64,000 nt of DNA, from positions 248,001 through 312,000 of the forward strand of contig NZ_JALJRZ010000006.1 in NCBI RefSeq assembly GCF_024519435.1, written 5' to 3'. This stretch comes from Terrabacter sp. Ter38 (GTDB lineage: Bacteria; Actinomycetota; Actinomycetes; Actinomycetales; Dermatophilaceae). Each line of letters begins with the position of its first letter. Position 1 is the first letter of the stretch. The position numbers and the translations under genes are program-made. The notes below the pieces were generated by a model. That model ran no database searches. It had not been told where the DNA came from and saw only the letters and a list, made by a program, of their open reading frames with translations. Of the stretch, positions 4,174 through 63,673 are shown in pieces.

Positions 4174-4956
4174 ATGAGCCACGAGTCCACGCCACAGGTC
4201 CCGGCGTCGCAGCCGACGCCCGCGCTGCCGCAGTTCGACCCGAACGCGCCGGCCGCCCACCCCACCGACGACACCCAGCTGCTCCCCTCGGCGACGACGA
4301 CCGAGATGCCGGTGACGCCACCGGCCACGCCGTACGCGTATGCCGTGTCGCCGAGGGCCGCGACCCCGCTCGCCGGTCCGGACGTGCCGCTCTCACCCAC
4401 CGGCCTGCCGGTCCGCGAGAGGGCGGTCCGCGCGAGGGCGGTCCGCGAGAAGCCGGCCGGCGTCGCGGCGAACGGTGACGGCCCCCGCTGGAACGCCAAG
4501 AAGACCGCGGTGACCGCCGGGCTCGCGCTCGTGCTGACGTCGGCGGGCGCCATCGCTGCCGCGGCCGCCATGCCGGCCGGGTCGACGGGCGGCGACACGG
4601 GCTTCCGCGGTCCGGGTGGCGGCCGCGGCTTCCAGTTCCCAGGAGGCCAGCAGGGCCTACAAGGTCAGCAGGGTCAGCAAGGCCTGACGAACCAGAACCC
4701 CAACCAGCAGGGCACGACCCCGCAGCAGCTGCCCAACCTCCAGAACGGCGTACCGGGCGGCGGACTGAGCGGCGGACTGAGCGGCATCGACCCGAACCAG
4801 CTCGGCCAGCTCGACCCGCAGGACCTGCTCCAGCAGCTCGGTCAGGGCGTCGACCCGTTCTCCGGCCAGGACCCCGGCCAGGACCCCGGCCAGGACCCCG
4901 GCCAGGACCCGGGTCAGGACGACTCGAGCACCTCTGGAAGCACCACGACGACCTGA
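4174..4956 (+). CDS. Single-pass membrane protein with Gly/Gln- and GQDP-rich outer part
   Basis: 260 residues, not recognised as a named family. A Pro/Ala/Thr-rich N-terminal half is followed by one membrane helix (about 109-132, AVTAGLALVLTSAGAIAAAAA) and then a low-complexity tail rich in Gly, Gln, Pro and Asp, ending in tandem GQDP repeats and a Ser/Thr run. An ATG at 4042 would add 44 residues that lie in the divergent promoter region and do not look protein-like, so ATG 4174 was chosen. The stop at 4956 abuts the stop of the convergent kinase gene at 4957. Being divergent from the two-component operon suggests shared control (inference). Confidence 0.65.
   Translation: MSHESTPQVPASQPTPALPQFDPNAPAAHPTDDTQLLPSATTTEMPVTPPATPYAYAVSPRAATPLAGPDVPLSPTGLPVRERAVRARAVREKPAGVAANGDGPRWNAKKTAVTAGLALVLTSAGAIAAAAAMPAGSTGGDTGFRGPGGGRGFQFPGGQQGLQGQQGQQGLTNQNPNQQGTTPQQLPNLQNGVPGGGLSGGLSGIDPNQLGQLDPQDLLQQLGQGVDPFSGQDPGQDPGQDPGQDPGQDDSSTSGSTTTT
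4864..4920 (+). repeat. 12-bp in-frame tandem repeat (GQDP)
   Basis: Nearly five copies of a 12-base unit (GGCCAGGACCCC) encode consecutive Gly-Gln-Asp-Pro units at the end of the membrane protein. The DNA identity of the copies points to recent expansion by slippage. Confidence 0.9.
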
Positions 4957-8151
<3,195 letters not shown>

Positions 8152-8313
8152 GTCCCGATCCTCGCGCATGTCGGGCCGTGGCGCCCGGATGGCGCGCTCT
8201 TTTCGGCGAGGGAGGCCCCGCGAGCCGCAGGTGAGCCTCGCCTTCGGTGACAGCGTCCCCGGCGGGTGCCACGATCGACGGGCACCGCCCCACCGTCGAT
8301 CGGAGCACCACCC

Positions 8314-9063: not shown

Positions 9064-9123
9064 GCGCGCGGCCACTTCACGGCCAGCACGCGGCATACGA
9101 CCCGATCAGCGCCCGCCGGGCTG

Positions 9124-11621: not shown

Positions 11622-12671
11622 ATGAGCACCATGCACGCGATCGTCTACCACGGCCCCGGCCGGAAGACCTGGGACGAGGTCCCGAAGCCGACGGTCCAGG
11701 CCGACACCGACGCCGTCGTCAGGGTCGACAGCGTGACCATCTGCGGCACCGATCTGCACATCCTCAAGGGTGACGTCGCGGCCGTCACCGACGGTCGGAT
11801 CCTCGGCCACGAGGCGGTCGGCACCGTCGAGGAGGTCGGTCCGGGTGTCAAGAACGTCAAGCCCGGCGACCGCGTGCTCGTCTCCTGCATCACCGCCTGC
11901 GGCGCGTGCCGCTACTGCCGCGAGAGCAGCTACGGCCAGTGCATCGGCGGCGGCGGCTGGATCCTCGGCCACACGATCGACGGCACACAGGCGGAGTACG
12001 TCCGCGTCCCCTTCGCGGACACGTCGACGTATGCCGTCCCCGAAGGAGTGACTGACGAGGAAGTACTCATGCTCGCCGACATCGGGCCCACGGGCTACGA
12101 GGTCGGTGTGCTGAACGGCCGGGTCCGTCCCGGTGACGTCGTAGCGGTGGTGGGCGCCAGCCCGGTCGGGCTCTCCGCCATCATGGGTGCCAAGCTCTTC
12201 AGTCCGGCGCACGTCGTGGCCATCGACCTGGCCGATGCCCGACTCGAGGCGGCCAAGCAGTTCGGGGCCGACATCACGGTGAACCCCTCCCGCGAGGACG
12301 CCGTCGCGATCGTCCGGGACCTGACGCAGGGTCTCGGCGCCGACGTCGCCATCGAGGCGGTGGGGGTGGCATCGACGTTCGAGCAGTGCGCGGCTCTCGT
12401 GCGCCCGGGTGGCACCGTCGCCAACGTGGGCGTCCACGGCGGCCCGGCCACCCTGCACCTGGAGGAGCTCTGGATCAAGAACGTCACCATCACGACGGGT
12501 CTCGTCGACACCTACTCGACGCCGACCCTGCTCCGGCTCCTGGCCACCCACCACATCGACCTGGCGCAGTTCGTGACGCACCGTTTCCCGATGGCCGACT
12601 TCCTCGACGCCTATGACACGTTCGCCCGCGCGGCGGACACCGGAGCCCTCAAGGTGGTGCTGACGCGCTGA
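11622..12671 (+). CDS. Zinc-dependent alcohol dehydrogenase (MDR family)
   Basis: 349-residue medium-chain NAD(P)-dependent dehydrogenase. The N-terminal half has the catalytic-zinc motif CGTDLH, GHEAVGTVEEVG and a structural-zinc cluster of four Cys in CGACRYCRESSYGQC. The Rossmann half has VVGASPVGLSAIMGA for nucleotide binding; Pro replaces the usual second Gly. A similar layout is found in isopropanol/secondary alcohol dehydrogenases. Ribosome site GGAGGAG lies just before ATG 11622. It appears monocistronic, behind a hairpin and convergent with the GNAT gene, whose stop is 13 bases away. Confidence 0.9.
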   Translation: MSTMHAIVYHGPGRKTWDEVPKPTVQADTDAVVRVDSVTICGTDLHILKGDVAAVTDGRILGHEAVGTVEEVGPGVKNVKPGDRVLVSCITACGACRYCRESSYGQCIGGGGWILGHTIDGTQAEYVRVPFADTSTYAVPEGVTDEEVLMLADIGPTGYEVGVLNGRVRPGDVVAVVGASPVGLSAIMGAKLFSPAHVVAIDLADARLEAAKQFGADITVNPSREDAVAIVRDLTQGLGADVAIEAVGVASTFEQCAALVRPGGTVANVGVHGGPATLHLEELWIKNVTITTGLVDTYSTPTLLRLLATHHIDLAQFVTHRFPMADFLDAYDTFARAADTGALKVVLTR

Positions 12672-13195: not shown

Positions 13196-15238
<2,043 letters not shown>

Positions 15239-19082: not shown

Positions 19083-22000
19083 GTGTCGACCCTCGTGGGC
19101 GCCACGCCCCCCGCAGACCACGAGCCGTATGCCGTCCCGACCGACGGGCACGCGCCCGTCCTCCCCGAGCAGCCGCTGCCCGACCCGCCGAGCGCCCAGC
19201 CCACCGAGCCGGCCCCCGAGCACGTGGTCGCCCCGCCACCGGAGCCGAAGCCGACCGCCGACCTCGCGCCGGACGCCGGCCCTGACCCCGACCCCGCCCC
19301 CGACGCCGACCCGTCGCGGCCGCTGACCCGCGTCCGCATCTCGCACGGCGACCTGCGCTTCGCCCGCCACCACGTCCTCGTCGGGCACTACCCGGGCAGC
19401 ACTCTCGTGGGTGGCGAGGGCGCCCTCGACGAGCTGCTCGACGGGAGGCTCTCGCGGGCCGCCCTGCTCGGCATCTACCCCGGGCCGATCGAGACGTGCC
19501 AGGTGTTCACCGACCCCGACGAGTGGACCCGCCCACCGGGTGCGGTCGTGGCCGGACTCGGCCCCATCGGAGGCCTGAGCGCCGCCTCACTGGCGCGCGC
19601 GACCGCCCACGCGGTGCTGACGTCGGCCCTCGGCCACCTCACGGCCGGGGCCTCGGCGACGAGCACCGAGGTGCGGCAGCTGAGGCTCTCCAGCCTGCTC
19701 ATCGGCACCGGCCAGGGCGGCCTCCCGGTCCGCGACAGCGTTCAGGCCCTGCTGACCGGGGTGCAGCGAGCCAACGACCGCCTCGCCGACACCGACCTCG
19801 GGGTCCACATCGCCGAGCTCGAGATCATCGAGCTGTGGCAGGACCGCGCGCTCCAGGCGGTCGAGGCCCTCGGGTCGTCGCTGACGAGCGGCGAGCTCGC
19901 CGACTCCTTCACGGCTGACCTGCGCCTCGAGGAGCGTCCGGGGCGCCAGCGTCGGCTGCTCTTCCAGGAGCCGACCGGCTGGTGGCAGCAGGTGCGCGTG
20001 CGCAGCGAGCCCGACGGAGGGCTGTCGTTCGAGGCGTCGATGCGACGGGCGGGCACGCCGACGCGCACCGTCCCGACGCAGCGGGCCCTCGTCGACCGGC
20101 TCGTCGAGTCGCTCGTCGACTCCCCGTCACCCGACCCGTCGGCGTCCCGGACGCTCTTCGAGCTGCTCTTCCCCAACGACCTCAAGGCGCAGGCGCCCGA
20201 CACCGACAACCTCGTCCTGCTCGTCGACCGCGGCTCGGCGCACTACCCGTGGGAGCTGCTCGACGATCACGGCACCGAGGAGGACCGAGAGCCCCTCGGC
20301 GTCCGGCGCGGTCTCGTCCGCCAGCTCGAAGGCTCGTCGATGCGAAGCCACGTGCTCTCCGCGACGAGCAGCCGAGCGCTCGTCGTCGGCGACACCGCGA
20401 GCGGCCTGAGCGCCCTCCCGGCCGCCCAGAGAGAGGCCCGGGGGGTCGCAGATGCCTTGCGACAGAACGGTTTCGAGGCCGAGCCGCTCATCGCGGAGAG
20501 CGGTACCAAGGTGATCCAGGCCCTCTTCGCGACGTCCTACCGCGTCGTCCACCTCGCCGGTCACGGCGTCTTCGAGTGGCCGCTCGGCGACGGGACGGAC
20601 GCCACGGTCACCGGCATGGTGCTCGGCAACGGGATGTACCTCACGGCGGGTGAGGTCGGCCAGATGCGGCAGGTGCCCGAGCTCGTCGTCGTCAACTGCT
20701 GCCACCTCGGGTCGATGGGACCGAGCACTCCCGTCGGCCCGGCAGCCCCGGGTGCGCCGGGTCTGCCCACCGAGCGCGCCGGCAACTACCACCGGCTCGC
20801 CGCGAGCTTCGCGACCGAGCTCATCGACATCGGCGTGCGGGCCGTCGTCGCCTGTGGCTGGGCCGTCGACGACGCCGCGGCCTCGACCTTCGCCGCGACG
20901 CTCTACGACCGGTTGCTCTCCGGGCTGACGTTCGGCGAGGCGATCGCCGCAGCCCGCTGGCAGACGTGGAACGACCATCCGGCCGTCAACACGTGGGGCG
21001 CCTACCAGTGCTACGGCGACCCGGACTACCGCTTGGCCCCCGACGCGGTCGTGCATCGCGCGACGACGGTGCGACGGGCGCCCGCGAGCGCCGAGCAGGC
21101 CAGGGTCGAGATCGAGAACCTCGGACAGTCGGTCGACGTCAGCCGCAACACCCGCTTCGGGCTCGACCGGCTGAGCGAGCTCTACGAGGCACTCTCGCCC
21201 GAGGACCGCGAGGACGACGCGCTCCAGGTGCTCATCGCCCGGACGTACAACAAGTTCGGCGACTTCGGGCACGCGACGCAGTACTTCGAGCAGACCCTCG
21301 AGCGGGGCGGGACGGCCCTGACGGTGCGCGACTTCGAGGTCTGGATCGACCAGGTCGTCCGGGCGGCGGCGACGAGCGACGACCCCGTCGACGACGCGGT
21401 CGCCACGATCGAGTCCGCCATCGACCGGCTGCGCACGCTCCTCGACAACCCCGCATCCCTCGTGCTCGGCTCGCACGCACCCGAACGGGTCGCCTTCCTC
21501 CCGGGCCAGGCCCCCGGGGCGTCGGGTGGCGTCGGCATCGACCGGCTGTGGCGGGTCGCGAGCGCCTACAAGCGGCTCGCCCTCGTCACGTGTCCCGAGC
21601 GCCCCGGCTCGACCCGCAGCGGCGACTGGACGCGCACGCACGACGCGCTGGCGAAGATGTCCGACTGGTACGCCGCGGCCCGGACCGCCTCGGGAGCGAC
21701 CGACCGGCGTCGTCACGGCGCGCTCGCCAACTGGCTCGCCGCCGAGCTGGCCCTGCGCTGGCGACCGGTCGAGGGGCGCACCGGGCTCGACCGGTCCGAG
21801 GCACGCCGCCTCATCGAGGAGTCGATCGGAGCCGCCCGCGAGGAGGCCTACCTCGCGCCGACCTTCTGGACGGTCGCGGTCTACGGCGACCTGCTCGTCC
21901 TCGACGCGCTGTGGAGCCCCCGGGCCACCGACGCCGAGGCCCAGCACGTCCTCGACCTCTACCGGCGCGCGAGCGATCTCGGCAGCGAGGAGCAGCTGCG

Positions 22001-22154
22001 CCAGGTGCGCGACCAGGTGGACTTCCTCATCGTCATGGCCGGCACGGAGGCGCAGCGACGCGCCGAGTTCCTCCAGACCCTGCGCGACGGTCTCGTGGCC
22101 CTGGACGCGCCCCCGCCCGGCACGGACGAGAGGGACGGCACGGTCACCGCGTGA
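19083..22154 (+). CDS. Large CHAT-domain protease with C-terminal helical repeat region
   Basis: 1023 residues. A disordered Pro/Asp/Glu-rich head (1-80) leads to an alpha/beta region (about 81-290, with VLVGHYPGSTLVGGEGALD and GAVVAGLGPIGGLS) that I cannot name. The CHAT (caspase HetF-associated with TPR) protease follows at about 380-640, with H494 in HLAGHGVFE and C540 in VVNCCHLG. The C-terminal part (about 680-1000) looks like TPR-type helices, including YNKFGDFGHATQYFEQTLERG. GTG 19083 lies three bases after the metacaspase stop. CHAT proteases can be activators or effectors in signalling and defence (for example TPR-CHAT of Craspase and gasdermin-linked proteases). No gasdermin or Cas gene is nearby. 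The last 11 bases overlap the convergent DHFR-like gene. Confidence 0.88.
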   Translation: MSTLVGATPPADHEPYAVPTDGHAPVLPEQPLPDPPSAQPTEPAPEHVVAPPPEPKPTADLAPDAGPDPDPAPDADPSRPLTRVRISHGDLRFARHHVLVGHYPGSTLVGGEGALDELLDGRLSRAALLGIYPGPIETCQVFTDPDEWTRPPGAVVAGLGPIGGLSAASLARATAHAVLTSALGHLTAGASATSTEVRQLRLSSLLIGTGQGGLPVRDSVQALLTGVQRANDRLADTDLGVHIAELEIIELWQDRALQAVEALGSSLTSGELADSFTADLRLEERPGRQRRLLFQEPTGWWQQVRVRSEPDGGLSFEASMRRAGTPTRTVPTQRALVDRLVESLVDSPSPDPSASRTLFELLFPNDLKAQAPDTDNLVLLVDRGSAHYPWELLDDHGTEEDREPLGVRRGLVRQLEGSSMRSHVLSATSSRALVVGDTASGLSALPAAQREARGVADALRQNGFEAEPLIAESGTKVIQALFATSYRVVHLAGHGVFEWPLGDGTDATVTGMVLGNGMYLTAGEVGQMRQVPELVVVNCCHLGSMGPSTPVGPAAPGAPGLPTERAGNYHRLAASFATELIDIGVRAVVACGWAVDDAAASTFAATLYDRLLSGLTFGEAIAAARWQTWNDHPAVNTWGAYQCYGDPDYRLAPDAVVHRATTVRRAPASAEQARVEIENLGQSVDVSRNTRFGLDRLSELYEALSPEDREDDALQVLIARTYNKFGDFGHATQYFEQTLERGGTALTVRDFEVWIDQVVRAAATSDDPVDDAVATIESAIDRLRTLLDNPASLVLGSHAPERVAFLPGQAPGASGGVGIDRLWRVASAYKRLALVTCPERPGSTRSGDWTRTHDALAKMSDWYAAARTASGATDRRRHGALANWLAAELALRWRPVEGRTGLDRSEARRLIEESIGAAREEAYLAPTFWTVAVYGDLLVLDALWSPRATDAEAQHVLDLYRRASDLGSEEQLRQVRDQVDFLIVMAGTEAQRRAEFLQTLRDGLVALDAPPPGTDERDGTVTA

Positions 22155-22713
22155 CGGCATACCTCGCGTACGTCGTGCCGCCGGCGAAGCGGCGGTGCTC
22201 GATCAGCTCGAGGTCGAGGCGTATGCCGTCCGGCAGGATCCGCGTGCCGCCGCCCACGACGACGGGCACCGTCAGCAGGCGCAGCTCGTCGACGATTCCG
22301 GCGCGCAGGGCCTCGGCCGCGAGGGTGGGACCGCCGATGCTGACGTCGCGGTCGGCCGAGGCCACGAGCGTCGCGACGGCGGCGGGGTCGAAGTCGCGCT
22401 CGAGCCGCGTCCGCGGGCCCGACACGGCCTCGAGGGTGCGCGAGTAGACGACCTTCTCGGCCGCCTGCCAGATGCGTGCGTAGTCGTGCTCGACGGCGTC
22501 GTCCGGATCGTCGGAGTCCTCGGTGGGCACGGTCTGCCAGTAGACCATCACCTCGTGGAGGCGGCGTCCGCAGAGGTAGGTGCCGATGTCGCGCTCGAGG
22601 TCGTTGACGAAGGAGTGCACCTCCCGGTCGGGTGCGGCCCACTGGAAGCCGCCGGCGGCGTCGTTCACGTAGCCGTCGAGCGAGGCGATGGTCGTGTAAA
22701 TGAGGCGGGCCAT
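22144..22713 (-). CDS. Dihydrofolate-reductase/RibD-C-fold oxidoreductase
   Basis: 189 residues, RibD C-terminal/DHFR superfamily, NADPH-binding. Motifs: RLIYTTIASLDGYVND, FVNDLERDIGTYLCGRRLHEVM, KVVYSRTL, DVSIGGPTLAAEAL and VPVVVGGGTRILPDG. Stand-alone actinobacterial members are common and mostly of unknown substrate. ATG 22713 is preceded by CAGAGT six bases upstream, consistent with a leaderless start. Its 3' end overlaps the CHAT gene by 11 bases, tail to tail. Confidence 0.88.
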   Translation of the reverse strand: MARLIYTTIASLDGYVNDAAGGFQWAAPDREVHSFVNDLERDIGTYLCGRRLHEVMVYWQTVPTEDSDDPDDAVEHDYARIWQAAEKVVYSRTLEAVSGPRTRLERDFDPAAVATLVASADRDVSIGGPTLAAEALRAGIVDELRLLTVPVVVGGGTRILPDGIRLDLELIEHRRFAGGTTYARYAVTR

Positions 22714-35508: not shown

Positions 35509-36689
<1,181 letters not shown>

Positions 36690-44810: not shown

Positions 44811-45277
44811 GCGACGGTCCCCTCGAGGAGACGTGGGAGTCGTGGACGTCCCGCGTCGCCGCCGACCTCGCCGTGCTCGTCGACGACGACTGGCTGACCT
44901 TCACCGTCCACGTGCCGTCACAGGCATCGAGCACGTATGCCGCCGAGCGGTCTCCGCGATCGTGGCGTCGGGGGGGCGCGCGGGCGGCTTCCCCGGCTCG
45001 GGTGCCCGACGTCTTCCTGCAGGCGCGGCGGCTCGAGGGCGTGCTCGCGCTCGAGTGCATCGGCGACACGGAGTTCGAGGGCCTGACCGACCTGACGCGC
45101 GAGGCGCAGGAGGCACTGGTCGGGCTCGGATGGATGCGCGACGGCGACGAGCCTGAGTTCAGCCGGGCATTCGAGGGCGCAGCCGAGGCGGCCGAGCTGC
45201 TCCGCGCGAGCCTCGCGCAGGTGCTGGGTGCCGCCACCCCGGCCGACGTCGACATCCGGCGGGCGCCGCGTCCGTGA
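44807..45277 (+). CDS. Small acidic protein, possibly YbjN/TY-chaperone-like
   Basis: 156 residues. WESWTSRVAADLAVLVDDDWLTFTV, a central basic stretch (RSPRSWRRGGARA), VPDVFLQARRLEGVLALECIGDTEF, then LTDLTREAQEALVGLGWMRD and a helical tail. The order of strands and helices recalls the T3SS-chaperone/YbjN-like TY-Chap proteins of actinobacteria, but I am not certain. It is translationally coupled to the thioesterase. Confidence 0.6.
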   Translation: MSDGPLEETWESWTSRVAADLAVLVDDDWLTFTVHVPSQASSTYAAERSPRSWRRGGARAASPARVPDVFLQARRLEGVLALECIGDTEFEGLTDLTREAQEALVGLGWMRDGDEPEFSRAFEGAAEAAELLRASLAQVLGAATPADVDIRRAPRP

Positions 45278-45491: not shown

Positions 45492-46310
45492 TCAGTGGCC
45501 GGCGGCGACCCGCTTCGCCGCGCGCTTCATGACCGCCGTGTAGGCAGGTCGGGCGAAGCGCTTGGCACGCCAGGCGACGTGTCCGTCACGGTCGGTGAGG
45601 ATGACGTCGCGGCGGGCGTCGATGCCGCGCACGACGATGGAGGCGATCTCGTCGGCGGTGCGCTTCGAGCCGCTGACCATCTTCTTGCCGGCCTCCTCCA
45701 TCTCGGTGTCGGCACCCTGGAACGACGAGCCGAGGTTCGTCCGGAAGAACGACGGGCAGATGACCGACACGTCAATGCCGTGCGGCGCGAGCTCGTGCGA
45801 GAGGGTCTCGCTCAGGGCGACGACGCCGGCCTTGACGGTGTTGTAGGCCGACATGCCCGGGGCGTGGACGAGGCCGGCGAGCGAGGCGGTGTTGACGATG
45901 TGGCCGCTGCCCTGCTCCTTGAGGAGCGGCGTGAAGGTGCGGCAGCCCCGGACGACGCCCAGCAGGTTGATGTCGACGATCCAGCGCCACTCGTCCATCG
46001 TCGCGACGTCGATGCGGCCGCCCGCGGCGACGCCGGCGTTGTTGACGAGCAGGTCGAGCCCACCCCACTTCTCGCGCACGTGGGCGAGGGCCGCGGACCA
46101 CGCCTCGTCGCTGCGCACGTCGAGGGGGAGGTACGCCGCCGCGTCCGGGAGCGCGTCGGGACGGTCCGTCGCCACGTCGGTCGCGAGCACGTGGTCGCCG
46201 CGGGCGACGAGGGCCCGGACGAGCGCCAGGCCGAGACCGGAGGCACCGCCGGTGACGAGGACGCGGCGGGGGGACGTGGGGGCGGACGCGCGGAGCGAGC
46301 GGGACGGCAT
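45492..46310 (-). CDS. Short-chain dehydrogenase/reductase
   Basis: 272 residues, classical SDR. Cofactor motif TGGASGLG, NNAG in LLVNNAGVAAGG, active-site Ser in IVNTASLAGLVHAPGMSAYNTVKAG with the YxxxK pair, and an Asp after the second strand (LATDVA), which favours NAD(H). C-terminal extension ends in Lys/Arg-rich helices. ATG 46310 lies within a copy of the GTATGCC motif; a TTG at 46319 would add three residues. It follows the quinone-oxidoreductase gene by ten bases, so the two form an operon. Confidence 0.9.
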   Translation of the reverse strand: MPSRSLRASAPTSPRRVLVTGGASGLGLALVRALVARGDHVLATDVATDRPDALPDAAAYLPLDVRSDEAWSAALAHVREKWGGLDLLVNNAGVAAGGRIDVATMDEWRWIVDINLLGVVRGCRTFTPLLKEQGSGHIVNTASLAGLVHAPGMSAYNTVKAGVVALSETLSHELAPHGIDVSVICPSFFRTNLGSSFQGADTEMEEAGKKMVSGSKRTADEIASIVVRGIDARRDVILTDRDGHVAWRAKRFARPAYTAVMKRAAKRVAAGH

Positions 46311-46320
46311 ACGCCCCAAC

Positions 46321-47841: not shown

Positions 47842-50116
47842 TCGTGAAGGTCGACCGGAGCAGGTCGGCGTCGCGCGAGCTCGGTCCGACCCGGAGCTCG
47901 AACTCGCCGGGCTCCACGACGCGGCGTCCGGCCGCGTCGACGATGGAGCAGGCCGCGGCCGGGACCTCGACGCGGGTGGTGACCGACGCGCCCGGCGGGA
48001 CGGTGACCCGGCGGAACGCCTTGAGCTCCTTGGCTGCCCACGTGACGCTCGTGACGACGTCGGTCACGTAGGCCTGCACGACCTCGTATGCCGTCCGCTC
48101 GCCCGTGTTGGTCAGCGTCACCTCGGCGACCACGACGTCGTCGGGCGAGGGGTCGCTCGCCTCGAGGGTGAGGTGGGACCACTCGACGGTCGTGTAGGTC
48201 AGGCCGTCACCGAAGACGAACTGCGGCTCCTGGGTGAGGTCGGCGTAGCGGTGGCCGTGCTGGCCGCGCACCTGGTTGTAGTAGGTCGGCTGCTGTCCGA
48301 CGTGCCGCGGGATCGAGAGCGGCAGGCGCCCGGCGGGCTCGATGAGGCCGAGGACGAGCTCGGCGACGGCACGACCGCCGCGCATGCCGGGGCTGAAGGC
48401 CTCGATGACAGCGGCTGCCCGCAGGGCGCTGGGCGGCAGGACGTTGGGCTTGGAGTGGAGCAGCACGACGACGACGGGGACGCCGGTGCCGTCGAGCTCG
48501 TCGACGAGGGCGTCGAGCAGGGCGACCTGACCGCCCTGCAGGTCGAGCGTCGCCGTCGAACAGCCTTCTCCCGTCAGGGCGATCGTGTCACCGAGCACGA
48601 CGACGGCGAGGTCGGCGGCGCGCGCTGCAGCCACCGCGTCGGCAAGCTGGTCCGGGTCGACGGGCGCCGACGCGGACACCGGCGGACGGGGCTGCCCGTC
48701 GGGGAAGAGTGGTCCCTCGGGATCCGGCACGAGGGTCTCGATCTCGGCGCCACGAGCATGCGTGACGGTCCAGGTCGACGGGACGACGGCACGGAAGCCG
48801 TCGAGCACGGTCTCGACCGTCTCGCGCGGGTGCCCGTCGGGCATCCAGTCGACCTGCCCGGAGGCCCCGGCCCAGTCGCCGAGGTTGGCCTGCGGGTCGT
48901 CGGCATTCGGCCCGAGGACGGCCACGGTGCGCGGGGCGTCCGTGACGGCATACGGAAGCGTGCCGTCGTTGGTGAGGAGCACGAGCGAGCGGCGGGCGAC
49001 GTCGAGGTTGAGGGCGGCGTGCTCGGCGGAGCCGATGACGAGGCGCTGGCGCTCGGCGTCCGGTGACCGGGGGTTCTCGAAGAGACCGAGCTCGAGCTTG
49101 ACGCGCAGCACCCGCCGGGCGGCCTCGTCGATGGCGCGCTCGTCGAGCAGGCCACGGGCGACGGCCTCCTGGGCGGCCTCGAAGAACGCGGGGGTCGTCA
49201 TGACGAGGTCGTTGCCGGCGCGGACGGCGACCGTCGCGGCCTCGACGTCGTCGGCGCAGACCTTCTGCTCCCAGACCATCCGGCCGACGTTGTCCCAGTC
49301 GGTGACGAGGGTTCCGGTGAAGCCCCACTCCCCCTTGAGCACCTCGTCGAGGAGCCAGCCGTTCGCCGTGACGGGCACGCCGTCGATCGCCTGGTAGCCG
49401 AGCATGAAGGTGCGGCAGCCCTCCTGGACGGCCCGCTCGAACGGGGGCAGGAACCACGACGTCAGCTTGCGCCGGCTGAGGTCGGCCTCGCTCGCGTCGC
49501 GGCCGCCCTGGGTCTCGGAGTAGCCGGCGAAGTGCTTGGCGCACGCGAGGACGGCCGTCGGGTCCGTGAGGCCGTCGCCCTGGTAGCCCCGGATCATGGC
49601 CGCGCCGAGCTCCCCGATGAGGTGCGGGTCCTCGCCGAAGGTCTCGCCGACCCGTCCCCAGCGCAGGTCGCGGGTGATGCAGAGGACGGGCGAGAAGGTC
49701 CAGTGGATGCCGGTCGCCGACACCTCCACCGCCGTGACGCGTGCCGCCTGCTCGACGAGGCCGGGGTCCCACGAGCAGGCCATCCCGAGCTGGGTCGGGA
49801 AGATCGTCGCACCCGGCCAGAAGGAGTGGCCGTGGATGCAGTCGTCGGCGGTGAGGAGCGGGATGCCCAGACGTGTCCGGGCCGCGAGATCGATGGCGCG
49901 CGGCAGGTCGTCCGGGGAGGTGTGCAGGATCGAGCCGGCCAGCTTCGTGTGGATGATGTCGGTCAGGTCGCCGCGTGCGTCCAGCTGGAGCATCTGGCCG
50001 ACCTTCTCCGGCAGCGTCATCCGACCGATGAGGTCGTCGAGGCGCTCCTCCACGGAGAGCGACGGGTCGCGGTAGGGGGCGTCAGTGAGGTCAGCGGCGG
50101 CTGCGTCGTCGGGCAC
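47789..50116 (-). CDS. GH3 glycoside hydrolase (beta-glucosidase type)
   Basis: 775 residues, family 3. TIM barrel with PLLTADDCIHGHSFWPGATIFP, the KHF motif (194-196, ACAKHFAGYSETQGGRD), and nucleophile D273 in GTLVTDWDNVG. The alpha/beta sandwich has VVVLGDTIALTGEGCSTATLDL with the likely acid/base Glu. A fibronectin-III-like C-terminal domain ends the protein. No signal peptide, so probably intracellular. GTG 50116 has TAGCGT exactly six bases upstream, which fits a leaderless RNA. Confidence 0.93.
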   Translation of the reverse strand: MPDDAAAADLTDAPYRDPSLSVEERLDDLIGRMTLPEKVGQMLQLDARGDLTDIIHTKLAGSILHTSPDDLPRAIDLAARTRLGIPLLTADDCIHGHSFWPGATIFPTQLGMACSWDPGLVEQAARVTAVEVSATGIHWTFSPVLCITRDLRWGRVGETFGEDPHLIGELGAAMIRGYQGDGLTDPTAVLACAKHFAGYSETQGGRDASEADLSRRKLTSWFLPPFERAVQEGCRTFMLGYQAIDGVPVTANGWLLDEVLKGEWGFTGTLVTDWDNVGRMVWEQKVCADDVEAATVAVRAGNDLVMTTPAFFEAAQEAVARGLLDERAIDEAARRVLRVKLELGLFENPRSPDAERQRLVIGSAEHAALNLDVARRSLVLLTNDGTLPYAVTDAPRTVAVLGPNADDPQANLGDWAGASGQVDWMPDGHPRETVETVLDGFRAVVPSTWTVTHARGAEIETLVPDPEGPLFPDGQPRPPVSASAPVDPDQLADAVAAARAADLAVVVLGDTIALTGEGCSTATLDLQGGQVALLDALVDELDGTGVPVVVVLLHSKPNVLPPSALRAAAVIEAFSPGMRGGRAVAELVLGLIEPAGRLPLSIPRHVGQQPTYYNQVRGQHGHRYADLTQEPQFVFGDGLTYTTVEWSHLTLEASDPSPDDVVVAEVTLTNTGERTAYEVVQAYVTDVVTSVTWAAKELKAFRRVTVPPGASVTTRVEVPAAACSIVDAAGRRVVEPGEFELRVGPSSRDADLLRSTFTITAPRTPVPSGSGRPTG

Positions 50117-50156: not shown

Positions 50157-51422
50157 GTGACCGAGCCCCTGACGCGACTGCCCGACGGGACCATCAAGCA
50201 GGTCAACCCCTTCACCGGCACGAAGGTGTGGACGTTGCCGGGGCGCGGCGCCCGACCTCTCGGCATCGCCCGGCCCGCCCCGAAGGCCCTCGACCCGGCC
50301 GAGCACGAGCGCCACTGCGCCTTCTGCTGGGGCCGGATGATCGAGACGACCCCCGAGATCGCCAGGGTCGTCCGGGACGGGTCGTCGTGGCGCGAGGTGC
50401 GCGGGCTCGTCGCCGAGCAGCTCGACGACACGGTGCCGGAGCTGCGCCTCTTCCCGAACCTCTTCGAGATCCTCAGCTACGACTACTGGCACCTCGCCCA
50501 CGGCTACGAGCCGACGCCCGAGTCGCTCGCGCACCGGACGGCATACCTCTCGACGCCTGCAGGGCGTGCACACGTGACCGCACTGGCGCGCATCCGGATG
50601 CGCTCGCGCGGTGCGTCCGGCGCGGAGGCGGAGCCGCTCGACGAGAACGACCTCGAGCGCGAGGCCGTCGGGCTCTTCGCGGGCAACCACCAGGTCGTCG
50701 TCTCGCGTCGACACTTCGTCGACGGCGCGACAGACGACACCCAGAATGCAGGCGCCGGGACGCTGACACCCGAGGAGCACTGGCAGTACACGCGATTCAC
50801 GATCGCCGGGGTGCGCGACCTCTACCGGAGCAACCCGCACGCACGCTATGTCTCGGCGTTCCAGAACTGGCTGCGACCGGCCGGCGCGTCGTTCGACCAC
50901 CTGCACAAGCAGCTCGTCGCCATCGACGAGCCGGGCGTGGACCTCGAGCGGGAGACCGAGCGGGTGCGAGCCGAGCCGGACCTCTTCGCGCGCTGGGGGC
51001 CGCAGTACGCCGAGACGCAGGGGCTCGTCGTGGCAAGCACCCCCACGGCCATGGCCTTCGCCGGGATCGGCCACCAGTACCCGTCGCTCGTCGTCTACAC
51101 GTCGAACACGGGGTGCCGGCCGTGGGAGCTCTCGGACGACGAGGTGCGCGACTTCTCCGACCTCGTGCACGCGTGCCACGCCGCGACAGGGGTCGACGTG
51201 CCGACCAACGAGGAATGGCACCACGGTCCGCCGTCGCTCGGCCTGCCCGTGCCGCTCCGGGTGGTGCTCAAGTGGCGGGTGTCGACGCTGGCCGGCTTCG
51301 AGGGCGGCACGAAGATCTACGTCAACACCATCGACCCGTGGACGGTGCAGGAGCGCACCGTCACGCGGCTGCGGGCCCTGGCCGCCGACGGTCTCGTCTC
51401 GGACCGCCTCGAGATCGCCTAG
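50157..51422 (+). CDS. DUF4921 protein, GalT/HIT-fold
   Basis: 421 residues. Looks like a galactose-1-phosphate-uridylyltransferase relative: an N-terminal CAFC pair like the GalT zinc site, YWHLAHGYEPTPE, and the HIT-like motif GASFDHLHKQLVAIDEPG in place of HPHGQ. Family DUF4921 is common in actinobacteria and has no established reaction; a nucleotidyl transferase is a reasonable guess. GTG start, leaderless, divergent from the GH3 glycosidase by 40 bases. Confidence 0.82.
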   Translation: MTEPLTRLPDGTIKQVNPFTGTKVWTLPGRGARPLGIARPAPKALDPAEHERHCAFCWGRMIETTPEIARVVRDGSSWREVRGLVAEQLDDTVPELRLFPNLFEILSYDYWHLAHGYEPTPESLAHRTAYLSTPAGRAHVTALARIRMRSRGASGAEAEPLDENDLEREAVGLFAGNHQVVVSRRHFVDGATDDTQNAGAGTLTPEEHWQYTRFTIAGVRDLYRSNPHARYVSAFQNWLRPAGASFDHLHKQLVAIDEPGVDLERETERVRAEPDLFARWGPQYAETQGLVVASTPTAMAFAGIGHQYPSLVVYTSNTGCRPWELSDDEVRDFSDLVHACHAATGVDVPTNEEWHHGPPSLGLPVPLRVVLKWRVSTLAGFEGGTKIYVNTIDPWTVQERTVTRLRALAADGLVSDRLEIA

Positions 51423-53354: not shown

Positions 53355-55452
<2,098 letters not shown>

Positions 55453-55536: not shown

Positions 55537-56826
55537 TCATGTGTTCTGGCGGCCCGGGCCCTGCAGGTACTCGTCGACGAGCCGGGCTGCGTCGCCGGCG
55601 CCGTCCTCGGCGCGCACGCGCTCACCGAGGGCGTATGCCGCCGCGCGGGCTCCCGCGGACAGCGCCACCTCGAGCGCCCGCTCGAGCCGGGCCGCGGTCA
55701 GGTCCTTGCGGGCGATCGGCGGTGCGGCGACCCCGAGGTCGGCCATCCGCCGGCCCCAGTAGGGCTGGTCCGCGGCGTGCGGCACGACGACCTGTGGCAC
55801 CCCGGCCCGAACCGCGGCTGCGGTCGTGCCCGCTCCACCGTGGTGGACGACGACGGCGCACCTCGGGAAGAGCACCTCGTGCGGGGCGGACCCGATCCCC
55901 AGCAGGTCGGGGGACGGTTCGGCTCCCAGTCCGGCGAGACCCTCGCTGACGACGCCACGCACGCCGAGACGACCCAGCACGCCCGCGAGCTCACGCGAGA
56001 CCGCGCCGGGGTCGGGCGTCGGCATCGAGCCGAAACCGACGAAGACCGGCTCGGGCCCGTCGTCGAGGAAGGCCTCGAGCGCAGGGGCCAGCGAGTCAGC
56101 GCCGACGTCGTCGCGAACCCAGTAGCCGGTCTGCCGCAAGGCCGGTGGCCAGTCCGCCGCCGGCGGGACCACGTGCGGGCTCGCGGCCAGCAGCGTCGGC
56201 GTGCCCTCAGCAGCAGCCGTGTAGTGACGGAACCGCTGTCGTGGCAAGCCTCGTCGGGCTCGGACGAGGTCACCGGCAGGACGGAAGAGATCGAGCGCGA
56301 CCCGGCCGGCGAGGGTGCTCCACGCGTCGTTGACCCACGATGTCGCGCGGGGCCGCAGGGCCAGTGCCACCGAGTCACCGTGCGCGCTCGGCCAGACCGG
56401 CGCGAAGACGGCGTAGAGGTGTGGCGCGGCCTGACGGCCACCTCGGCCGTCAGGAGTGAGCAGCGCGTCGACGAGGTCGAAGGTCAGCGCCCCCGACACC
56501 ACGGCGTCAGCACCGGCGACGAGCCGCTCGACGTCCGCGGCCAAGGCCGACGCCGTGTCGGCCATGACCTGCCGCATGAGCCGGGCCTCACGCACCTGCG
56601 TCCTCGCCGACCCGCGCAGTGCGTCACGTCCGAGCCCCTGGCGGAGCGGCCCCTCGAGGTCGAAGGACAACGGCTCGAAGTCGACGCCGCTGCCCGCCAC
56701 GACGTGACCGAGGTCGGCCGGCGCGGCGAGCGACACGGCATACCCCATCCGTCGGAGGCGCTGCCCGAGCGCGACGAGCGGCTGGACGTCACCACGGGAT
56801 CCCATGCCCAGCAGGAGGATCCGCAC
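55537..56826 (-). CDS. GT1-family (UGT-like) glycosyltransferase
   Basis: 429 residues, GT-B fold, similar to sterol/macrolide or rhamnosyl-type UDP/NDP-sugar transferases. N-terminal acceptor domain begins RILLLGMGSRGDVQPLVALG. The donor domain has VFVGFGSMPTPD, APHEVLFPRCAVVVHHGGAGTTAAAVRAGVPQVVVPHAADQPYWGRR, the family signature. GTG 56826 has GAGGA six bases upstream and starts just inside the end of the LLM gene region (two bases from its stop). Last gene of the four-gene operon. The acceptor may be a lipid or small natural product. Confidence 0.9.
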   Translation of the reverse strand: MRILLLGMGSRGDVQPLVALGQRLRRMGYAVSLAAPADLGHVVAGSGVDFEPLSFDLEGPLRQGLGRDALRGSARTQVREARLMRQVMADTASALAADVERLVAGADAVVSGALTFDLVDALLTPDGRGGRQAAPHLYAVFAPVWPSAHGDSVALALRPRATSWVNDAWSTLAGRVALDLFRPAGDLVRARRGLPRQRFRHYTAAAEGTPTLLAASPHVVPPAADWPPALRQTGYWVRDDVGADSLAPALEAFLDDGPEPVFVGFGSMPTPDPGAVSRELAGVLGRLGVRGVVSEGLAGLGAEPSPDLLGIGSAPHEVLFPRCAVVVHHGGAGTTAAAVRAGVPQVVVPHAADQPYWGRRMADLGVAAPPIARKDLTAARLERALEVALSAGARAAAYALGERVRAEDGAGDAARLVDEYLQGPGRQNT

Positions 56827-57862: not shown

Positions 57863-58401
57863 GCGCCCATCGTAGGTATGCCGCCGACCTGCCACGTGCG
57901 CCCTGCGTCGGGGTCCCAGCGTCGGACCGACTCGATCGTGCCGTCGAGGGGTCGGACGCGGCCGAGGGCGGCGAGCGCCTCCCCCACCTGGCGCGAACCG
58001 AGGCTACGGGCGATGGTGACGTGCGGGGTCCAGCGTCCCGGGCGCACCTGGTCGGGCACGTCGGGCGCCCCGACCATCGCAGCCGCGAGCGACCGCTGGA
58101 GGTCGAGCAGCTCGGGTGTCGGGACGACGAGGCGGGCGAGGACGTAGCGTCGGGAGCCCATGACGAGCAGCGACCCCAGGCGGATCGGCACGGGCCGCAC
58201 CGTCTCGAGGACGCGGGCGATCCGGGCCTCGACGTAGTCGGGGACGGCCCCGGCGAGCGCCAGGGTGAGGTGCGGCGCGTTCGTCGCACCCTGGTGCTGC
58301 GACTGACTCGGCAGTCCCGCCGCGGCCAGGGCCGCCCACTCACGCCGGACCTCCGTGTCGGAGGTGGCGTCGAGCAGGCCCTCGACCGCGTGCAGGGGCA
58401 T
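57859..58401 (-). CDS. 2'-5' RNA ligase-family (2H phosphoesterase) protein
   Basis: 180 residues with the two H-x-T/S motifs of the 2H superfamily: APHLTLALAG and TPHVTIARSLG. The fold is that of LigT/ThpR or cyclic phosphodiesterases acting on 2',3'-cyclic or 2'-5' phosphoester bonds. ATG 58401 is two bases after the P-loop gene stop. Sits inside the operon P-loop protein, 2H protein, LLM oxidoreductase, glycosyltransferase; an RNA- or nucleotide-linked role is possible but not shown. Confidence 0.88.
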   Translation of the reverse strand: MPLHAVEGLLDATSDTEVRREWAALAAAGLPSQSQHQGATNAPHLTLALAGAVPDYVEARIARVLETVRPVPIRLGSLLVMGSRRYVLARLVVPTPELLDLQRSLAAAMVGAPDVPDQVRPGRWTPHVTIARSLGSRQVGEALAALGRVRPLDGTIESVRRWDPDAGRTWQVGGIPTMGA

Positions 58402-59633: not shown

Positions 59634-59637
59634 AGGG

Positions 59638-59675: not shown

Positions 59676-59711
59676 GCATCATGTACCGGAGTCCACAGAT
59701 GGAGTGACCGC

Positions 59712-61574
59712 ATGACCGACACCCCCACCACCCTCAGGCCGACCCACCGCGGCGGCCGCCAGCCCGAGAAGATCGACCCGCAGGACCGCGCCCAGCTCGC
59801 CGAGTCCCCCGTCTCCCTGCGGCGGGTCGCCGGTCTCTTCCGCCCGCACACCCGCACCGTCGCGGTCGTCACCACGATCATCGTGGCGATCTCGGTCGTC
59901 TCGATGGCCCAGCCCTTCCTCCTGCGCGCCGTCATCGACGACGCCCTCCCCCACCAGGACGTCCGCCTCCTGCTCTGGGCCGTCGGCGGCATGCTGGCCG
60001 TCACCGTCGTGAGCCAGCTGCTCGGCGTCGTCCAGACGTGGCTCACCACCTCCGTCGGCCAGCGCGTCATGCACGGGCTGCGCACCGACGTCTTCCGTCA
60101 CCTGCAGCGCCAGTCCGTCGCCTTCTTCACCCGCACGCGCAGCGGTGAGGTGCAGTCGCGCCTCACCCACGACATCAGCGGCATGCAGTCGGTCATCACG
60201 TCGACGGCGACGTCGATCGCGAGCAACCTCACGACCGCCGTCGCGACGGCCATCGCCATGGTGGCGCTCAGTCCCCGACTCTCGCTGCTCTCCCTGCTCG
60301 TCATCCCGCCGGCCGTCCTCATGACCCGCAAGGTCGCCCTGCTGCGCCGTGACATCACCGCCCAGCGCCAGCGTCGGCTCGCCGACCTCCACAGCCAGGT
60401 CGAGGAGGGCCTCACGGTCAGCGGCGCGACCCTCGTCAAGACGCTCGGCGCCGGGGAGGCCACGGCCGACCGCTTCGCCGAGACGTCCACCGACCTCATC
60501 GACCTGGAGCTGCGTTCTCAGCTCGCCGGTCGTTGGCGGATGGCGACCATGCAGATCATCTTCGCCGCGATCCCCGCGCTCATCTACCTCGCCGCCGGCC
60601 TGCCCGCGACCTCGGGCGGCATGACCATCGGCACGCTCATCGCCTTCACGACGCTGCAGGCCGGCATCTTCCGACCGCTCATGGGACTGCTCGACGTCGG
60701 GGCACAGTGGGTCACCTCGATGGCACTCTTCAGCCGCATCTTCGGCTACCTCGACCTCCCCGTCGAGGTCGCACCGCCCGCCGATCCCGTTGCGGTGCAG
60801 CACGATCGACTGCGCGGCGAGGTGCGTTTCGAGGGCGTCACCTTCAGCCACGACCCATCTGCCGCCGAGAGCACGTATGCCGTCTCCGACGTCACGCTCC
60901 ACGTGCCCGCGGGCACGACGCTGGCCCTCGTCGGCGAGACCGGCTCGGGCAAGTCGAGCCTCGCCGGTCTCCTCGCGCGGCTCCACGACCCACAGTCCGG
61001 ACGCGTGACGATCGACGGCGTCGACCTGCGCGACCTCGACCCGGCCGACCTCGCCCGCATCGTCGGCGTCGTCTCGCAGGACACCTACCTCGTGCACGCC
61101 TCGATCCGCGACAACCTGCTGCTCGCCGCCCCCGGCGCGAGCGACGACGAGCTGTGGCAGGCCCTCGCCGCGGCTCAGGTCGCAGCGCTCGTGGCGAGCC
61201 TTCCCGATGGCCTGGGCACCGTCGTCGGGGCCCGCGGCCACCGCTTCTCCGGAGGCGAGAAGCAGCGCCTCGCGATCGCCCGCACGCTGCTGCGCAACCC
61301 GCGCGTCCTCGTGCTCGACGAGGCGACGAGCGCGCTAGACAACGAGACCGAGCGCGAGCTGCAGACCGCGATCGACCGGCTCATGGCCGGCCGCACGACC
61401 CTGACCATCGCGCACCGCCTGTCGACGATCCGCGACGCCGAGCAGATCGCCGTGCTCGACCACGGTCGGGTGGCCGAGCTCGGCGACCACGACGACCTGA
61501 TGGACCGCGGCGGCCGCTACGCGCGGCTCGTCCGGGCCCGCGAGGGCTCGGCGCGTGAGGCGCTCGCGGCCTGA
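59712..61574 (+). CDS. ABC exporter, fused membrane and ATPase domains
   Basis: 620 residues, a half-size exporter (ABCB/MsbA-like) with a six-helix membrane domain (about 45-345) and an ATPase domain. Walker A GETGSGKSS (K414), Q-loop VVSQDTYLVH, signature FSGGEKQR (512-519), Walker B VLVLDEATSALD, and H-loop AHRLST. It acts as a homodimer or with another half-transporter, exporting drugs or lipids. GGAG lies eight bases before ATG 59712. The adjacent MarR gene suggests induction by the exported compound. Confidence 0.93.
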   Translation: MTDTPTTLRPTHRGGRQPEKIDPQDRAQLAESPVSLRRVAGLFRPHTRTVAVVTTIIVAISVVSMAQPFLLRAVIDDALPHQDVRLLLWAVGGMLAVTVVSQLLGVVQTWLTTSVGQRVMHGLRTDVFRHLQRQSVAFFTRTRSGEVQSRLTHDISGMQSVITSTATSIASNLTTAVATAIAMVALSPRLSLLSLLVIPPAVLMTRKVALLRRDITAQRQRRLADLHSQVEEGLTVSGATLVKTLGAGEATADRFAETSTDLIDLELRSQLAGRWRMATMQIIFAAIPALIYLAAGLPATSGGMTIGTLIAFTTLQAGIFRPLMGLLDVGAQWVTSMALFSRIFGYLDLPVEVAPPADPVAVQHDRLRGEVRFEGVTFSHDPSAAESTYAVSDVTLHVPAGTTLALVGETGSGKSSLAGLLARLHDPQSGRVTIDGVDLRDLDPADLARIVGVVSQDTYLVHASIRDNLLLAAPGASDDELWQALAAAQVAALVASLPDGLGTVVGARGHRFSGGEKQRLAIARTLLRNPRVLVLDEATSALDNETERELQTAIDRLMAGRTTLTIAHRLSTIRDAEQIAVLDHGRVAELGDHDDLMDRGGRYARLVRAREGSAREALAA

Positions 61575-61667
61575 CCCAGGGCGGGGGCCAGGACCCGACG
61601 GAGGTCGGCAGGACGGCATACCTCGGTCGAATGCCGCCCGCCGGCACCGGTGTGGCACGGTGGGGCC

Positions 61668-62186: not shown

Positions 62187-63673
62187 CCGAGGATGCGGAG
62201 GGCTGGCGCCGACTCGACGCCCGGATGCTCCTCGTCCACCCGCTCGAGACGCTGATCCGCTTCCTGCCCGCGCTGCTCGCGCTCGTCGTCTTCCGGGCCG
62301 GATCCGAGGACAACGACCGGTGGGAGCTGTATGCCGTCCCGCTCATCGTCGCCTTCGGCGTGCTGCGGTGGGTCACGACCCGCTACCGCATCGCCGACGG
62401 CCAGATCGAGCTGCGGCGCGGCCTCTTCACGAAGCAGACGACGACGGCGCGGCTCGACAAGGTGCGCACCATCGACCTGACGGCGCGCGTCTACCACCGC
62501 GTCCTCGGACTGGCCAAGGTCGAGATCTCGACCGCCGGCGGCCAGCGCGACCGGCTCGTCCTCGACTCGCTGGGCGTCGATGCGGGCCGTCGCCTTCGGG
62601 CCGAGCTGCTGCACCGCGTCGACCCGGCCGTGACCGGTCTGCCCGCACCGACCGGCGCCCCGGTGGCCGACGACGACGTGCCCGACGACGTACCACCGCC
62701 CGTCGACGACGAGGTGCTCGTGCGCCTCGACCCGTCGTGGATCCGCTACGCACCGCTCACCGTGACCGGGCTCGCGAGCGCCGCGGCGATCGTCGGCTTC
62801 GCGTCGCAGGGCCTCTCGCGCTTCTCGCAGGAGCGGTCGGTCTTCCGCGACGGCGCGACGTTCGTGTCACGGTTGGCCTGGTGGGTCGACGTGCTGCTCC
62901 TGCTCGGTGTCGTGTCGCTCCTCGCGGTCGGCGCCTACGTGCTGACCTTCTGGGGCTTCCGCCTCACCCGCAACCGTCTCGGCACGCTGCACACACGGCG
63001 CGGCCTGCTCACCAACCGTGAGACGAGCATCGACGCCGCCCGGGTGCGCGGGATCCGGCTCGACGAGCCCTTGGGCCTCCGGCTCGCCGGCGCGCGCCGT
63101 CTCAAGGTCGTGACGTCGGGTCTGCTGCGCGAGCAGGGTGGGTCCGACTGGCTGTGCCCACCGGCGCCGGCGGGCGTCGTGACGCCCCTCGCCCTGCGCA
63201 TACGGCCCGACGAGGCCGCCGTGTCGGGTCCACTGACGCCACACGGCCCCGCCGCCCGCCGACGACGGATGACGCGGGCGCTCGTGCCCGCCACCCTCGC
63301 CGCAGCCGGCCTCGTGGTCGCCCGCGTGCTGTGGGACTGGCACGGCTCGCTGCTCGTCCTCGTGCCGATGCTGTTCGCCGGGGCCGTGGCCCTCGGCCGC
63401 GACCGCTACGGCGCACTCGGGCACACCGTGACGCCCGACCACCTCGTGTCGCGCCACGGCTCCCTCGACCGGCAGCGTGTCGTGCTCGACCGCGACGGCA
63501 TCATCGGCTGGAAGGTCGAGCAGTCGTTCTTCCAGCGGCGCGTGGGCGTCGCGACCCTCGTCGCCACCACGGCCGCGGGAGCCCAGCACTACGACGTCGT
63601 CGACGTGCCCGTCGAGATGGCGTATGCCGTCCTGGCGCAGGTGAGCCCCGACCTGTCGGCGGAATTCAGCTGA
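62183..63673 (+). CDS. PH-domain (bPH2/YdbT-like) membrane protein
   Basis: 496 residues with three bPH2-like regions joined by pairs of membrane helices: LVHPLETLIRFLPALLALVVF then TRYRIADGQIELRRGLFTKQTTTARLDKVRTIDL; a middle helix pair with GFRLTRNRLGTLHTRRGLLTNRETSIDAARVRGIRLDEPLG; and a third at TPDHLVSRHGSLDRQRVVLDRDGIIGWKVEQSFFQRRVG. GTG 62183 overlaps the previous stop (GTGA). A membrane complex with the YdbS-like partner is likely. Confidence 0.88.
   Translation: MTEDAEGWRRLDARMLLVHPLETLIRFLPALLALVVFRAGSEDNDRWELYAVPLIVAFGVLRWVTTRYRIADGQIELRRGLFTKQTTTARLDKVRTIDLTARVYHRVLGLAKVEISTAGGQRDRLVLDSLGVDAGRRLRAELLHRVDPAVTGLPAPTGAPVADDDVPDDVPPPVDDEVLVRLDPSWIRYAPLTVTGLASAAAIVGFASQGLSRFSQERSVFRDGATFVSRLAWWVDVLLLLGVVSLLAVGAYVLTFWGFRLTRNRLGTLHTRRGLLTNRETSIDAARVRGIRLDEPLGLRLAGARRLKVVTSGLLREQGGSDWLCPPAPAGVVTPLALRIRPDEAAVSGPLTPHGPAARRRRMTRALVPATLAAAGLVVARVLWDWHGSLLVLVPMLFAGAVALGRDRYGALGHTVTPDHLVSRHGSLDRQRVVLDRDGIIGWKVEQSFFQRRVGVATLVATTAAGAQHYDVVDVPVEMAYAVLAQVSPDLSAEFS

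Follow-up and report, generated by a model that had tools for sequence, protein, structure and literature searches.

A 64,000-base window of the Terrabacter sp. Ter38 genome was analyzed (positions 248001-312000 of contig 51; the genome, called G000 below, comprises 4.83 Mb in 54 contigs). The window was rich in an octamer, GTATGCCG, which we read with a probability of about 0.6 as the core of a putative DNA uptake sequence, recognized by a Tad/Com machine. The wider proposal would be a Gram-positive actinobacterial uptake system that uses a Tad/Flp-type machine and lacks a ComP-like type IV pilin. It would span about 30 genera of a single family, differ in dialect between them and have been lost several times independently. 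We judged this wider proposal to have slightly better than even odds. A search of the open literature found no paper describing a word of this kind in actinobacteria. A first-pass annotation of the window had pointed to a dispersed 10-mer, GTATGCCGTC, and to the GTATGCC within it. The counts given there were exact. GTATGCC occurred 38 times in the window (72.0 % G+C), with 21 copies on the plus strand and 17 on the minus strand, and GTATGCCGTC occurred 22 times, 11 on each strand, in agreement with the absence of strand bias stated there. The chance estimates of about six and below one were also correct. The expectation was 5.9 for GTATGCC and 0.11 for GTATGCCGTC by base composition, and 2.0 and 0.08 under a second-order Markov model. 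The abundance of the 10-mer stood, and its choice as the unit was refined. The natural and most compact unit was the 8-mer GTATGCCG, which covered 36 of the 38 GTATGCC copies with 0.9 expected, or 2.2 under a third-order Markov model. TC followed the core at 22 of 36 cores in the window, compared to 49 of 175 in another 400 kb of G000 (stretches L002-L021). These two bases of the 10-mer are a preference added to the GTATGCCG core. The preference is stronger in the window than elsewhere, and the dialect is regionally uneven within this one genome.

The excess was not limited to the window. The motif read backwards was used as the control word. In the whole G000 genome, GTATGCCG had 2,069 copies (1036/1033 by strand) compared to 210 for the control, and GTATGCCGTC had 640 copies (328/312) compared to 22. 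In a 464-kb sample of G000, made of the window and 20 stretches, GTATGCCG reached 26 times its expectation. The word was sharp. In the same sample, 23 of its 24 single-base neighbors stayed at 0-3 times expectation, and the other reached 10 times with five copies. GTATGCC accounted for 38 of the 64 TAT/ATA words of the window, and the earlier statement that Tyr is mostly TAC and ATA is scarce was borne out in 59,668 training codons (TAT 85 and TAC 994; ATA 21 and ATC 1885). Genes were called with a purpose-written script and no standard caller, so the genic and intergenic fractions are approximate. The 211 core sites of the 464-kb sample included 103 in the frame TAT-GCC, 34 in GCA-TAC and 13 in GGC-ATA, which were the rare-codon frames named at first pass, and 12 in other frames. 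The remaining 49 lay outside predicted genes, in 13.5 % of the sequence, where the sites were enriched. An artefact of codon pairs or composition would fit the 103 of 162 genic sites that lie in one frame as Tyr-Ala. However, the excess survived the third-order Markov model, was also seen outside genes and in the other frames, and did not appear in motif-less relatives whose composition is similar. Since copies occurred in several frames, on both strands and in intergenic DNA, the excess was not codon-pair usage only. This explanation was hardly credible and was rejected.

Site conservation was investigated in alignments of two parts of G000, the window and the comEA region, with their counterparts in relatives. 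Gapped sites were scored as lost for the motif and dropped from the background, a scoring that disfavors the result. In seven congeners, GTATGCCG was kept at 39/41, 37/38, 36/38, 30/37, 16/27, 14/18 and 16/18 sites. The background identity of 8-mers in the same congeners was 0.69, 0.66, 0.52, 0.40, 0.33, 0.36 and 0.37, and other 8-mers beginning with GTAT were kept at 10/20, 10/20, 6/18, 4/17, 1/9, 2/7 and 3/8 sites. In the first four congeners, the sites were kept far above background, which upheld the positional conservation between relatives that had been suggested as support. More distant comparisons gave 8/13 in G312 (background 0.25), 3/14 in G213 without excess (background 0.21) and 0/24 in the motif-less genome G318 (background 0.26). 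In the seven congeners, as in G312, the amino-acid identity at the motif codons was 0.95-1.00. It was 0.70 at the motif codons compared to 0.80 elsewhere in G318, and 0.68 compared to 0.78 in G213. The word was conserved in motif-bearing congeners and its codons were below average in G318; therefore, it is the DNA word that is kept. This supported the earlier claim that the target of selection is the DNA word rather than the protein, with drive as the other possible force. The same alignments bore on a mutational origin, in which deamination of a methylated C would convert GTACGCCG to GTATGCCG. A single C-to-T change separates the two words, and in the most frequent frame it leaves the amino acid unchanged (TAC to TAT). 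However, GTACGCCG was not depleted (50 seen and 40 expected; 54 and 29 in motif-less stretches), and it stood at only 1 of 24 orthologous sites of G318, where the rest varied. The word was also kept, not merely produced, over 5-13 % divergence. This origin was highly improbable and was rejected on the undepleted GTACGCCG and the G318 sites.

Counting the word in related genera, as the first-pass annotation had proposed, showed an excess in many of them. Genomes with at least 140 copies of GTATGCCG per Mb were called dense and those with fewer than 30 per Mb motif-less, both cut-offs being chosen here. Among 149 family genomes, 82 were dense (144-1356 per Mb), 17 were intermediate and 50 had no excess (at most 25 per Mb). 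A dense member was present in 30 of 53 genera, 16 genera had motif-less members only, and g3 and g114 were mixed. Of 297 genomes drawn from across the order, 24 belonged to the family, and the 10-mer was frequent in some of these alone; the remaining 273 had at most 16 copies each. A draw across the class comprised 394 genomes, of which 386 lay outside the family, and we read G450 as the densest outsider, with about 51 copies per Mb and a control of 23. By our reading, the motif excess within the class is limited to one family (Intrasporangiaceae and kin), where it is patchy. We take this Intrasporangiaceae-type family to be the Dermatophilaceae of GTDB. Samples of 40-60 kb from each of 7 genomes, which represented 5 further families of the order, showed no comparable word. 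In stretches L132-L134 of G001, from another family, a ATCATGCAATCC-like word was present seven times in 60 kb, which was probably a local repeat or element. The ComEC protein of G000 had 86 % identity to that of Terracoccus sp. 273MFTsu3.1, 79 % to that of an Intrasporangiaceae bacterium and 59 % to that of Intrasporangium calvum, and the ComEC loci of these three carried 14, 9 and 6 cores in 22.5, 22.6 and 15.2 kb, respectively. On the ComEC tree, a tree of one gene, the motif label needed at least four changes over 21 labelled rows, and it clustered no more than in shuffles (153 of 500 were as low). We read these changes as probable losses because the identical 8-mer is found again in lineages that deep splits separate. 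The alternative would be gains with transfer of a receptor.

The bases 3' of the fixed core varied by genus. Congeners were compared over overlapping orthologous regions, and their hairpin and dialect counts were not independent. The core was followed by T/C and then mostly C in the genus of the window, by CTCA in G312, by (C/T)G in G017, and by T and then C or G in G122 and G224. G034 and G257 showed little 3' preference. In G213 the core was followed by CTG with more fixed flanks. The G213 form, read in L034-L036, L063, L092 and L109, was approximately GCC-GTATGCCG-CTG(G/A)GC, the strongest dialect seen, with a lower copy number (1,142). No equally sharp word was found in the motif-less samples (80-111 kb each, one pooled from four genomes), where the nearest rival word was GGCGTACG in G136 with 51 copies compared to 7 expected. 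Both GGCGTACG and CGTACGTC were in excess in G136 (L037, L038, L039, L069), and they could be its own word or codon usage.

The sites were also over-represented close to the ends of genes. In the 80 bp that follow stop codons, 41 sites were found in G000 with 14 expected, and 30 in G402 with 18 expected. Before gene starts, there were 23 sites in G000 and 33 in G402. For 105 sites between co-directional genes of 16 genomes, the upstream stop was nearer for 73 and the downstream start for 30. Sites inside genes showed no consistent position bias in three genomes. The stem check covered the 15 convergent close pairs. Ten of them, from four genera, made perfect stems 13-22 bp in length, and none of these stems lay in a predicted gene. 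Seventeen motif-bearing genomes yielded 89 perfect intergenic hairpins, and 14 of these had the motif in the stem. The perfect intergenic stems and the crowding of sites 3' of stop codons would suit a transcription terminator or RNA-structure element spread as a REP-like repeat. However, 162 of the 211 sites were inside predicted genes in several frames, only 10 close pairs occurred among the 211 sites, and the flanks past the core were weakly conserved between copies in most genera. The single intragenic copies also spoke against such an element, which we consider very unlikely.

A site for a chromosomal protein was considered next. In this explanation, a replication, segregation, recombination or nucleoid protein would use the word at about 0.4 sites per kb, as a Chi-, KOPS- or architectural-type signal. 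The sites were spread over the sampled chromosome, conserved and sparse in a conjugative stretch, which is consistent with this role. Contig 11 had conjugation genes in three stretches of 20 kb (60 kb together). These held 5 sites, whereas about 29 were expected from the other stretches; the density outside was 4.9 per 10 kb. The TrwC relaxase, the TraG coupling protein, TrbL and an integrase were among their genes (10 proteins scanned). This is the one case of scarcity of the motif in putatively acquired DNA. The stretches were L018, L019 and L094 (contig C11, within 1-63 kb), and L094 additionally contained a tad-like cluster. L006, which has a lower G+C content, had 3 sites in 20 kb. However, the known Chi and KOPS sites are polar, and the orientation of 281 sites in 20 stretches of the single-contig genome G402 had no bias between replication arms (64:61 and 77:79). 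The coding strand swapped between the halves of G402, unlike the motif orientation; the arms were assigned by position and coding strand, with GC skew near zero. The polar segregation or recombination signal among the options of the first-pass annotation was disfavored by this one genome. The inverted pairs embedded in hairpins would also be unexplained, and at least four gains or losses on the one-gene tree make an essential chromosomal function hard to accept. Overall, a chromosomal-protein site appeared unlikely, with a non-polar site as the form that may still apply.

Methylation was weighed in a similar manner. A conserved orphan methyltransferase or restriction system might modify the word, and the modified form might be favored for repair, regulation or defense. 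HIP1 is a precedent, a heavily iterated octamer tied to orphan methyltransferases (PMC4390886). GTATGCCG is likewise sharp and family-specific. However, it is not its own reverse complement, and the genus-specific outer bases and the inverted pairs in hairpins are not expected of a methylation word. N6_N4_Mtase, the one enzyme family covered, had no match in G000 and matched in 5 of 20 motif-bearing genomes compared to 10 of 20 motif-less ones. This family was rejected as the cause of the motif, since its distribution did not track the word, and the methylase option of the annotation was disfavored to that extent only. We regard methylation as quite unlikely. In the mixed genera, N6_N4_Mtase was found in the motif-less members G351 (C1:49674-50744; g114) and G398 (C6:80987-82069; g3). 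Of the dense members tested there, G034 was without it and G315 had a weak match only.

An uptake signal fitted best among the options that had been listed at first pass. The hallmarks of uptake sequences seen here were the copy number, the lack of strand polarity, inverted pairs in intergenic stem-loops, conservation at permissive sites, genus dialects, scarcity in acquired DNA (one case) and the host machinery, which is non-discriminating. In the proposed mechanism, a surface component of the competence machine would bind double-stranded DNA bearing GTATGCCG. The likeliest reader would be a minor pilin of the Tad/Flp type, or else some other factor that feeds ComEA/ComEC. DNA of kin might thereby be taken up preferentially and then recombined. 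Imported alleles with the word would replace alleles without it, and the word would accumulate and be kept. The maintaining force might be molecular drive, selection for kin exchange, or both. The machinery of G000 was consistent with this mechanism. ComEC was present with a ComEA-type gene ahead of it, DprA was present as well, and two chromosomal tad clusters were conserved in relatives. One of these adjoins genes that are presumably prfB, ftsE, ftsX and smpB, named by resemblance. In the regions of 20 relatives, comEA was seen beside comEC by pattern in 16, and it was missed in G335, G034, G235 and G411, where HHH_3 matched.

Several results weighed against the uptake interpretation. The machinery did not separate motif-bearing from motif-less genomes. 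All 20 relatives' regions, including 5 from motif-less genomes, had an open comEC frame. HHH_3, the ComEA domain, matched in 146 of 149 family genomes, TadE in 144 of 149 and DprA in 40 of 40 genomes tested, with or without the motif; HHH_3 also matched a larger protein, and not every match is ComEA. HHH_3, TadE and DprA were rejected as the switch between the two states. One G000 tad cluster lay in the motif-poor L006. No gene tracked the motif when three G000 tad stretches were compared with those of ten relatives (1-3 each, with uneven coverage). No receptor for the word was found. PilM_2 was found in 5 of 149 family genomes and the N_methyl pilin in 1 of 40 genomes tested, neither of them in G000. 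A classic type IV pilus was rejected as the reader on these negative searches. The placement data were also partly unfavorable. Convergent and divergent close pairs were nearly equal in frequency (15 and 13). Motif hairpins were present in 6 of the 17 motif-bearing genomes, while 10 had hairpins without the motif and 1 had no hairpin. None of the 14 hairpins of motif-less genomes carried the motif, a weak control that says little because these genomes hardly have the word. In uptake sequences, the spacing would be expected to match recombination tracts. The coefficient of variation of spacing was 0.81, 0.95 and 0.97 compared to 0.96-0.99 for random sites, and the regularity hinted at by a first pooled look was not significant. 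No gradient of identity, a sign of recombination, was seen around the sites in the window compared with four relatives. Finally, the term "uptake sequence" did not occur in the two papers searched on transformation of Micrococcus luteus (M. luteus) (PMC4322843; PMC6370729). Separately, a type IV pilus-like locus with a PilM protein beside an N_methyl pilin was noticed in G315 (contig C2, 210147-211714), although most of the family has no such locus.

If the uptake interpretation is true, GTATGCCG would represent a third, independent origin of uptake sequences, in Gram-positive actinobacteria. It would imply a new sequence-specific DNA receptor on the Tad/Com machine, and the purpose of uptake words (kin exchange, repair or selfish drive) would be open to comparative testing. 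The word added to donor DNA might make soil actinobacteria that are hard to engineer transformable. If it is no uptake sequence, a strictly conserved octamer across many genera of one family still needs an explanation.

The cores of the window are listed in Table 1. The window resembled ordinary chromosome, with two-component kinases, SNF2 helicases, glycosidases, dehydrogenases and a transporter (20 of 53 called genes scanned). It also encoded a DUF4921 protein (50157-51422, plus strand) with 66-96 % identity in all 12 relatives tested.

Table 1. Positions of the 36 GTATGCCG cores in the window, 22 of which carry TC and form GTATGCCGTC.
Feature	Position	Strand	Remark
GTATGCCG core	4338..4345	+	
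GTATGCCG core	9091..9098	-	
GTATGCCGTC (core + TC)	12029..12038	+	
GTATGCCGTC (core + TC)	13254..13263	-	
GTATGCCGTC (core + TC)	13397..13406	+	
GTATGCCGTC (core + TC)	19127..19136	+	
GTATGCCGTC (core + TC)	22153..22162	-	divergent close pair with site at 22221
GTATGCCGTC (core + TC)	22221..22230	+	divergent close pair with site at 22153
GTATGCCGTC (core + TC)	25445..25454	+	
GTATGCCGTC (core + TC)	26038..26047	-	
GTATGCCGTC (core + TC)	27690..27699	+	
GTATGCCG core	27906..27913	-	
GTATGCCG core	32953..32960	-	
GTATGCCG core	33254..33261	+	
GTATGCCGTC (core + TC)	34704..34713	+	
GTATGCCGTC (core + TC)	35127..35136	-	
GTATGCCG core	35678..35685	+	
GTATGCCG core	37867..37874	+	
GTATGCCGTC (core + TC)	38986..38995	-	
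GTATGCCG core	40461..40468	-	
GTATGCCGTC (core + TC)	41912..41921	-	
GTATGCCG core	44155..44162	-	
GTATGCCG core	44935..44942	+	
GTATGCCGTC (core + TC)	46303..46312	-	
GTATGCCGTC (core + TC)	48086..48095	+	
GTATGCCGTC (core + TC)	48944..48953	-	
GTATGCCGTC (core + TC)	50537..50546	-	
GTATGCCGTC (core + TC)	53436..53445	-	
GTATGCCG core	54885..54892	+	
GTATGCCG core	55633..55640	+	
GTATGCCG core	56736..56743	-	
GTATGCCG core	57876..57883	+	
GTATGCCGTC (core + TC)	60875..60884	+	
GTATGCCGTC (core + TC)	61612..61621	-	
GTATGCCGTC (core + TC)	62329..62338	+	
GTATGCCGTC (core + TC)	63622..63631	+	

Uptake sequences have been described for Neisseriaceae and Pasteurellaceae, both Gram-negative (e.g. 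PMC7811141). ATGCCGTCTGAA, the DNA uptake sequence (DUS) of neisserial bacteria, is recognized by ComP on type IV pili. It resembled GTATGCCG in its thousands of copies, dialects, patchy presence, inverted pairs and lack of orientation bias. Neisserial DUS are reported with 943-5,918 copies, with dialects around a common core and with some family members lacking them (PMC3630211), and the 2,069 copies of GTATGCCG fell within this range. They are also reported to form inverted pairs in terminators, to lie in the core genome, to be conserved at permissive places and to be absent from newly acquired genes (PMC2397512), and to show no general orientation bias (PMC2346458). However, the hosts here were an actinobacterial family with about 70-73 % G+C in most stretches read. 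PilM and the N_methyl pilin were not found in G000, ComP itself not having been searched. The core of GTATGCCG was fixed with a variable 3' end, and regular spacing was not significant. The neisserial DUS and the 10-mer of the window have ATGCCGTC in common, and we think that this overlap is chance because TC is only a preference of the window's genus. Taken together, GTATGCCG is best described as DUS-like, yet it would be no member of the neisserial DUS/ComP family, since a type IV pilus was not found in G000.

The uptake signal sequence (USS) of Pasteurellaceae, AAAGTGCGGT, showed a similar likeness in its high copy number, intergenic inverted repeats and orientation preference in reading frames. 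It is reported with hundreds to thousands of copies, with intergenic inverted repeats and with one orientation commoner in reading frames (PMC2346458). However, the word is unrelated and the USS hosts are Gram-negative. HIP1 (GCGATCGC) is an iterated octamer common across a cyanobacterial clade with exceptional low-copy members (PMC4390886), and GTATGCCG was similar in being iterated and clade-wide with some low-copy members. In contrast to GTATGCCG, which is no palindrome and was not tracked by the one methyltransferase family tested, HIP1 is palindromic and orphan methyltransferases recognize its inner bases. To our knowledge, no uptake word is known for M. luteus. The Flp/Tad-dependent transformation of M. 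luteus resembled G000 in machinery type, with ComEA/ComEC homologues, two tad clusters that are both needed for transformation (PMC4322843; PMC6370729), and no other type IV pilus genes (PMC4322843).

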